Source of the DNA: Zanthoxylum bungeanum
Lineage: Eukaryota > Streptophyta > Magnoliopsida > Sapindales > Rutaceae
DNA: 64,000 nt
NCBI GenBank assembly: GCA_019454045.1
Contig: SKCR01031833.1
Location: 22,303 to 86,302, forward strand
Direction of reading: 5' to 3'
This document shows positions 17,014 to 17,680 of this stretch, one piece after another. Under the pieces are notes generated by a model. It was not told the origin of the DNA. It searched no databases and was given only the letters and a program-made list of their open reading frames with translations. The stretch's first letter is position 1; each line of letters begins with the position of its first letter. A program made the translations under genes and the position numbers.

Positions 17014-17680
17014 ATGGAAGCAACTTCAAGAAGACGAGTCTTTAACATTTGTGTGTTCTGTGGTACCAGTTCTGGTTCTAAACCAGAATTCGCTGAAGCA
17101 GCAAATGAATTGGGGAGAGTCATGGCTGAGAGAAATATGCACTTAGTATATGGCGGTGGCAATCATGGACTAATGGGGTACGTTTCAAGGGCCGTATAGG
17201 GAAGGAGGTAGTCAAGTTTTGGGAATCATACCAAAACCTTTGGCAGAGGCAAATCTTATCGGACAATCAAACGGAGAGGAATGCATCGTGTCAGGTATGT
17301 CTGAATGACTTGTTGAAATGATTAATTGTAATGATGCTTTTATTGCTTTGCCAGGTGGCTTGGGCACGATGGAGGAAATTTTTACAGTTATATCTTGGGC
17401 GAACTTGAACATACATCAGAAACCAATTGGACTATTTAATGTTGATGGATTTTTCGACTTTCTTTTTGTGTTTCTTGAAGATGCCATGAGAAATAGGTTC
17501 CTTTCAAAACTCCTAAAAGATATCCTCTTCACTGCCAGAACATCCAATGATTTAATTGACCAACTGTTAGCCTTCGAACCAAAAATTGACCATATCATTT
17601 CCAAGATAAACTAGTCTGATAATGATCGTGGTAAGAAGCGTCGGATAAATCTGGATCTTAACCTTTCATTTTATTTTTAA
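17014..17680 (+). pseudogene. LOG-like: LOG-type cytokinin phosphoribohydrolase cargo gene of element A, broken
   Basis: LOG enzymes release active cytokinin bases from their nucleotides in the cytosol and nucleus. The ATG at 17014 starts MEATSRRRVFNICVFCGTSS, followed by the nucleotide-binding HLVYGGGNHGLMG. A later frame holds AFIALPGGLGTMEEIFTVISWA (LOG signature PGGxGTxEE with its catalytic Glu), then KPIGLFNVDGFFDF. Family length is about 200-220 codons and the gene here spans about 218. TAG at 17197 plus a one-base insertion just after it, TGA at 17306 (at the conserved Arg codon) and TAG at 17612 break it. There is no intron, while plant LOG genes have several, so the capture was probably through cDNA. 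Plant LOGs have Arg-Lys after the MxxR position; here it is Arg-Leu in C. Confidence 0.88.

Follow-up and report, generated by a model that had tools for sequence, protein, structure and literature searches.

Why should a retrotransposon carry a plant gene of the LONELY GUY (LOG) type, which encodes the cytokinin-activating enzyme type-I cytokinin riboside 5′-monophosphate phosphoribohydrolase, and does such a gene serve the element or simply travel with it? The question is raised by a stretch of 64,000 nucleotides from Zanthoxylum bungeanum (Rutaceae; assembly GCA_019454045.1, contig SKCR01031833.1, positions 22,303 to 86,302 of the forward strand), called the window below, which contains three copies (A, B and C) of a Ty3/gypsy element with long terminal repeats (LTRs), each with a LOG-type gene. 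The original prediction, made from the letters of the window, had placed an intronless LOG gene in sense orientation between the integrase and the 3′ LTR of an Athila-like element, and this placement holds: from the ATG at 17014 onward, LOG motifs and Pfam matches are found on the same strand as the integrase (Table 1). We conclude that the LOG gene is very probably an ancient, single accessory gene under selection, given the ratio of non-synonymous to synonymous divergence (dN/dS), a single clade of element proteins, and the conserved slot and length of the gene.

All three motifs named in the prediction (YGGGNxGLMG, PGGLGTMEE and KPIGLFNVDGF) occur in the window LOG; copy A carries PGGLGTMEE, and the PGG motif of copy C is broken by a stop. 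Pfam Lysine_decarbox matches the 3′ piece of copy A (2.5e-23) and copy C (3e-10), and LDcluster4 matches the 5′ piece of copy A (1.6e-6). In the frame of copy A the next stop after 17665 is found at 17678-17680, in agreement with the predicted end. The nearest solved structures by sequence are those of Arabidopsis At2g37210 and At5g11950, which we take to be LOG3 and LOG8, respectively. In A, B and C the LOG gene lies after integrase sequence and before the 3′ LTR. The same gene had been predicted at the same place in copies B and C; its position there stands, although A and B are not independent of each other and none of the genes is open.

The LOG gene is carried by a retrotransposon family and not by a single locus. 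When P0001, a database protein of 217 amino acids, served as the query for LOG against the host assembly [3.96 gigabases in 51,709 contigs], a loose first look gave 70,454 candidates, and the best 150, which were scored, matched with 87-100% identity across 215-217 of the 217 residues in a single exon, two of them being identical to P0001. No internal stop was counted (from the table of matches) in 125 of these 150, a figure that is not used as an argument for function because the loci were ranked by LOG score. Three sets of loci were compared, one chosen by LOG score (LOG-chosen) and two chosen without regard to LOG, either by the non-coding leader between integrase and LOG (leader-chosen) or by the integrase (integrase-chosen). 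The leader of the window and the DNA downstream of it were present in all 30 LOG-chosen loci fetched, and the C-terminus of an integrase lay within 1.5 kilobases (kb) in 20 of the 30. The leader search gave 9,982 first-look candidates, of which the best 40 were scored and 20 loci (L057-L076) examined; one high-ranking match (C35749) was left out, as its contig ends ahead of LOG. LOG was found in the same slot in 20/20 of these loci, once as a partial match only. For the integrase, 67,753 candidates led to 150 best matches scored and 20 stretches examined, 19 of them informative (L080 is cut by a contig end). The genome search for LOG following an integrase, proposed with the original prediction, thus found LOG in the same slot in 17 of the 19 informative loci, with two lacking any LOG. 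Some LOG-bearing insertions are young, because LTR pairs, obtained from six of nine sampled LOG loci, diverge by K of 0 to 0.020 (three of the six being cut by the end of the stretch); the remaining three of the nine yielded no pair. A primer-binding site adjoins the 5′ LTR wherever a sampled stretch reached that far.

Where did the element gene come from? The host-type motif PGGYGT was found at 31 places in the genome. Of eight that were looked at, seven have the gene divided into exons and one is of the element type. A spliced message is the most likely source of the element LOG, because the element gene has no introns while host LOGs have exons. A tree of 64 proteins, of the kind that the original prediction had proposed, unites the element-type LOGs and window copy C in one clade (support 95/95), beside a separate clade of host LOG1/3 and LOG8 (support 99/98), the host sampling of the tree consisting of LOG1/3-type proteins and LOG8. 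Proteins of the element clade are on average 57% identical to one another and 46% identical to LOG1/3, and their frames, of about 217 codons, are intact. When the capture took place is uncertain, because a faster rate of evolution in elements could likewise place the clade further out. By name, the tree includes proteins from Xanthoceras, Citrus, Reevesia and Paulownia, with poplar represented by close relatives since rows that were nearly identical had been thinned; Acer, Dipteronia and Diplodiscus are among the search matches outside the tree. No relatives of P0001 were found in viral contigs, and a search of plasmid DNA gave no match. We also would like to point out two features of the database relatives. 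P0007 and P0011 begin 5′ of the LOG methionine with residues (TSAIITHPFQVYKF and LLLTHFQVYKF) like the translated window leader (copy B, 28839-28883, TSAIITHSFSISINS; copy C, 37142-37098, TSAIVTHLFQVL; compared with no statistical test), so their contigs probably hold elements too. The predicted Xanthoceras proteins P0241-P0244 (336-406 amino acids) have profile scores far above those of single LOGs, which suggests two LOG domains per gene model, either fused or mis-annotated tandem copies.

The dN/dS comparison between element copies that had also been proposed points to constraint on the protein. By the Nei-Gojobori method the window copies, which were not picked by LOG quality, gave 0.35 (A-B), 0.42 (A-C) and 0.39 (B-C), and none of 1000 bootstraps reached 1 or more. 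Comparisons between subfamilies ranged from 0.23 to 0.42. The leader-chosen copies (of 20, nine were dropped for frame shifts and two, L062 and L065, were misaligned, leaving nine) gave 0.36 against the LOG-chosen subfamily, whose 29 loci were picked by LOG score, which favours low dN. The two open integrase-chosen copies, the only ones of exactly 217 codons and hence included, gave 0.33 against the leader-chosen and 0.23 against the LOG-chosen set. Neutral simulations under an assumed transition bias of 3 (n = 117) had a mean dN/dS of 0.79 and a minimum of 0.46. Within the LOG-chosen set (n = 29, L025 excluded) the ratio drops from 0.61 at dS 0.02-0.05 to 0.19 at dS 0.2-0.5, and the four pairs with dS below 0.02 gave 2.8. 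Such a trend is expected where inserted copies decay neutrally while the lineage that transposes stays under constraint, although the set is biased to low dN.

The element proteins also share a C-terminal tail, composed of a cluster of lysines and arginines followed by LxLxL at the extreme end (Table 1). When tail-less copy C was the query, 52 of the 80 listed matches of at least 208 amino acids ended in LxLxL and 71/80 had the basic cluster. With a second, profile-based search, whose query included tails, pooled in, the listed full-length relatives have LxLxL in 103/137, the cluster in 123/137 and both in 101/137; host LOGs show LxLxL in 0/118 and the cluster in 1/118. After thinning of the relatives to 70% identity, LxLxL remains in 12/20 and the cluster in 18/20, and shuffled tails yield LxLxL in 1.5%. 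Among 44 representatives (85% identity) the cluster stands exactly seven residues from the end in 32, and in these leucine occupies positions -1, -3 and -5 in 30/32, 31/32 and 29/32, respectively, with -2 and -4 variable; the other 12 are truncated, frayed or otherwise spaced. Residues 203-217 of P0001 are predicted to be disordered. Basic clusters of this kind can act as nuclear import signals. LxLxL is one of two consensus forms of the ethylene-responsive element binding factor-associated amphiphilic repression (EAR) motif (PMC9956375, PMC6283911, in excerpt); A, B and C have it as LDLNL, DLNxxP being the alternative form. The EAR motifs characterised so far occur most often in C-terminal regions (PMC9956375, in excerpt). 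By its residues, the conserved tail thus resembles a nuclear signal joined to an EAR co-repressor motif.

Ahead of this tail the LOG fold is retained. The structure predicted for P0001 resembles a LOG, matching 2a33 with a template-modelling (TM) score of 0.95 by target length, and the model superposes on LOG3 and on bacterial LOGs bound to adenosine monophosphate (AMP). PGGxGTxEE is present in 39 of the 44 element representatives and in 108 of 120 host matches.

Taken together, we favour with moderate confidence an explanation in which LOG is an old, selected accessory gene, its product probably nuclear and its function one that we infer. In the distant past, an Athila-like Ty3/gypsy lineage would have captured a spliced plant LOG message between pol and the 3′ LTR, and selection on transposing copies would have retained it as an accessory gene while individual insertions decay. 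The protein would have retained the LOG fold and, in most lineages, PGGxGTxEE, and would have gained the short disordered tail, which is not found in the host LOGs sampled. The basic cluster would import the protein into the nucleus, and it is probable, as judged from the tail, that the element LOG is a nuclear protein. The LxLxL end would then dock on TOPLESS-type co-repressors, which is plausible without being the likelier case, and the element product could alter transcription in the cell where transposition takes place. Local cytokinin activation would be a retained yet dispensable second activity; that it is still the selected function in most lineages we hold to be slightly less likely than not. 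These readings (accessory gene, nuclear location, docking, cytokinin activation) are not mutually exclusive. In its fullest form, which we advance only tentatively from the sequences, the proposal is that element LOGs form a single old clade whose members are nuclear proteins with the LOG fold that recruit TOPLESS-type co-repressors through the terminal LxLxL, each a retrotransposon-encoded transcriptional effector derived from a hormone enzyme, and that some lineages such as those in Citrus gave up the enzyme activity and kept the tail.

Several observations weigh against this explanation. All three LOG copies of the window are pseudogenes, with a TGA at codon 98 common to A and B; the original prediction was right about the presence of the genes, and it overlooked both their breakage and the unusual tail. 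LOG is open in 1/20 leader-chosen loci and broken in 19/20, and a frame of at least 205 amino acids is open in 4/19 integrase-chosen loci, the 15 broken ones including the two that lack LOG. Stops recur among the leader-chosen loci, at codon 64 in 6/20 and at codon 98 in 4/20; they may have been inherited by a subfamily multiplying with a broken LOG, or may reflect repeated C-to-T change, and in the former case elements would have gone on multiplying after their LOG had broken. Within the old leader-chosen subfamily (n = 9) dN/dS is only as low as 0.60. The comparisons between subfamilies, those of the window copies excepted, involve loci that were to some extent chosen by LOG score or openness, and therefore the strength of constraint is only approximate. 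Outside this genome, we infer that the database relatives, metagenome and named proteins alike, are located in elements from repeated near-copies and from the literature. The branch with the Xanthoceras proteins keeps ERKAEM and the basic cluster and lacks LxLxL. As to catalysis, the active-site arginine fits the motif in 35 of the 44 representatives, and the lysine after it (RKAxM) is present in 3/44, versus 119/120 hosts with the ERKAEM type; this loss lowers the claim of an active LOG, not that of a LOG fold. In a Citrus cluster PGDLATLEA replaces PGGxGTxEE while the tail stays, so enzyme activity may be gone there.

Some related details may be recorded here. The protein P0118 from Citrus x changshan-huyou, which has PGDLATLEA and the basic-LxLxL tail, represents 705 LOG-fold proteins in 90% clusters, and P0116 from the same source keeps the tail and has no PGG motif. 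Three integrase-chosen copies carry early frameshifts; a frameshift common to them (L090, L093 and L094) was considered and rejected, as they have three different one-base losses. A splice acceptor for LOG expression (TGGCAGG within 160 bases 5′ of the ATG in 19/32 copies) was likewise set aside as too weak.

The alternative that survives best, which we nevertheless hold to be unlikely, is that LOG is cargo for cytokinin activation: the enzyme would raise active cytokinin, favour division or meristem fate and so help insertions to enter the germ line. The frequent retention of PGGxGTxEE, the superposition on LOG3 and AMP-bound bacterial LOGs and the constraint on the protein all agree with such a role, whereas the near-general loss of the lysine beside the active-site arginine and the altered catalytic motif of the tail-bearing Citrus cluster do not, and the tail is left unexplained. 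It is improbable that hosts possess a LOG paralogue, so far undescribed, that ends in a basic-LxLxL tail and was captured repeatedly by different elements. The narrow host sampling of the tree (LOG1/3-type and LOG8) leaves room for it; against this, the host-pattern loci examined were ordinary intron-bearing LOGs except for one of the element type, and a common leader precedes LOG in every LOG-chosen locus fetched. Slightly more improbable still is that LOG is a passive passenger, its message picked up by chance and without function for the element, so that the low dN/dS would stem from sampling of better-preserved copies. The mostly broken genes in loci chosen without regard to LOG, the possibly inherited stops and the picking of some dN/dS sets by LOG score fit this well, but a functionless gene would hardly be expected to form a single clade whose members, 57% identical on average, have kept frames of about 217 codons intact, to give 0.39-0.42 between window copies that were not picked by LOG quality, to give 0.33-0.36 across subfamilies when neutral simulations never fell below 0.46, and to conserve a tail absent from the sampled hosts. 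That the window is merely a local segmental duplication of a host LOG region, as the tandem array of A and B could suggest, or an ordinary host gene invaded by elements, both considered in the original prediction, is next to impossible and was rejected as the whole story, since copy C inserted independently and has a target-site duplication of its own, 150 LOG places were scored genome-wide, and the leader- and integrase-chosen loci reveal a family throughout the genome.

We return to the selected accessory gene and to the elements that carry it in the window, whose features are collected in Table 1.

Table 1. Features of the LOG-bearing elements A, B and C in the window (position 1 is its first nucleotide).
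Feature	Position	Strand	Remarks
LOG gene, copy A	17014..17665	+	ATG at 17014; 217 codon positions; one frameshift, two in-frame stops
LOG gene, copy B	28938..29589	+	three stops, one frameshift
LOG gene, copy C	36396..37045	-	one stop, three frameshifts
Tail, copy A	17630..17665	+	GKKRR (basic cluster) and INLDLNL (LxLxL); ends GKKRRINLDLNL
Tail, copy B	29554..29589	+	GKKHR and INLDLNL; ends GKKHRINLDLNL
Tail, copy C	36396..36431	-	GKRRR and INLDLNL; ends GKRRRINLDLNL
Non-coding leader, integrase to LOG	16400..16990	+	common to the family
Integrase core, copy A	14883..15560	+	PF17921, PF00665 (3.1e-13); C-terminal part to about 16064
Integrase core, copy B	27019..27729	+	PF00665
RNase H, copy A	14129..14653	+	PF17917
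Reverse transcriptase, copy B	25497..25910	+	PF00078
Protease region, copy A	12481..13134	+	weak RVP_2 match, under curated cut-off
gag, copy B	22964..23395	+	PF03732
Primer-binding site, copy A	10651..10671	+	preceding 5′ LTR lost or rearranged
LTR common to A (3′ LTR) and B (5′ LTR)	20870..22598	+	
Primer-binding site, copy B	22603..22623	+	
3′ LTR, copy B	30837..32499	+	end truncated
5′ LTR, copy C	40774..42861	-	
Primer-binding site, copy C	40750..40770	-	
3′ LTR, copy C	33066..35038	-	G-rich polypurine tract before the LTR

Copies A and B form a head-to-tail array with one LTR in common. They are not independent evidence, because the LTR divergence (K 0.086) equals that between their internal parts (K 0.092 before LOG and 0.081 after it). 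Copy C is a separate insertion, with LTRs at K 0.052 and a 5-base duplication (ATATA) flanking both sides; it differs from copy A by about 20% and has lost the reverse transcriptase, RNase H and most of the integrase. The features of a Ty3/gypsy LTR retrotransposon are present, namely an LTR pair, a primer-binding site, a target-site duplication (in C only) and the order gag, protease, reverse transcriptase, RNase H, integrase, an order assembled from copies A and B together and with a weak protease match. The label "Athila-like" derives from the domain order, the primer-binding site and the original prediction. The primer-binding site of the window is, we presume, of the tRNA-Asp type. The scanned reading frames gave no match to PF03078 (Athila ORF-1), a domain that is in any case absent from most Athila elements, being found in 16% of them (PMC6317226, in excerpt). 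A single RNase H was seen per copy, in the open fragments looked at; an additional RNase H (aRH) is a mark of the Tat clade (PMC6317226, in excerpt).

Note also the other repeats of the window. At 807-7644 lies a Ty1-copia-type element with LTRs at about 807-1848 and 6596-7644 (95% identical) and frames that look gag-, integrase- and reverse-transcriptase-like. An insert within element A (18791-20694), which starts with TG, ends with CA and has TACAA on both sides, is probably a solo LTR of another family. On the minus strand, 52597-54544 matches the LTRs of A, B and C at 72-88% together with little internal sequence, and is a further decayed copy or a solo LTR of the LOG-bearing family. The tandem repeat at 59777-60473 has a minus-strand open frame of repeated GRGAP/VEVP-type peptides.

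A function has, to our knowledge, been assigned to few of the accessory genes that plant retrotransposons carry. The evidence presented here lifts the element LOG from a curiosity to an accessory gene with a shared, specific tail that is probably selected, and raises a testable claim, namely that a retrotransposon-encoded nuclear protein may affect the hormone state or the co-repressor machinery of the host. A known fold, an enzyme activity that can be measured and a defined motif for docking make the case unusually open to experiment. The presence of LOG in such elements had been noticed in passing: an abstract by Steinbauerova and colleagues from 2011 is said to mention "two Athila-like elements with similarities to LOGL4". 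A YgdH (LONELY GUY) domain is reported in Gypsy consensuses of Citrus sinensis, C. clementina and Populus trichocarpa in a 2022 study, which calls the finding "in line with" Steinbauerova et al. 2011 (PMC9289625, in excerpt). The original prediction that LOG cargo is not a described property of Athila elements therefore fails, a LOG-type domain in plant Gypsy elements being already on record, and what is new here is the evidence on tail, clade and selection. In a literature search that covered mostly titles and the openings of abstracts, with the best matches listed, no description of a single clade, of the basic-LxLxL tail, of selection or of this genome was found for LOG-bearing elements. 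Among other known systems, the AlkB-bearing Gypsy elements of Phalaenopsis are alike in that a captured host enzyme domain was retained through rounds of replication, their AlkB protein being active in vitro; they differ in that AlkB is an N6-methyladenosine (m6A) RNA demethylase and was seen in that screen only in the two Phalaenopsis genomes (PMC9289625, in excerpt). Env-like open reading frames of the Bagy2 type share the sense orientation and the slot between pol and the 3′ LTR (PMC7264820, in excerpt), whereas the slot here holds a LOG-fold protein. Finally, Bs1 of maize is likewise an LTR retrotransposon with transduced host gene sequence (PMC7264820, PMC8616336, in excerpt), but the LOG gene described here belongs to a large family.
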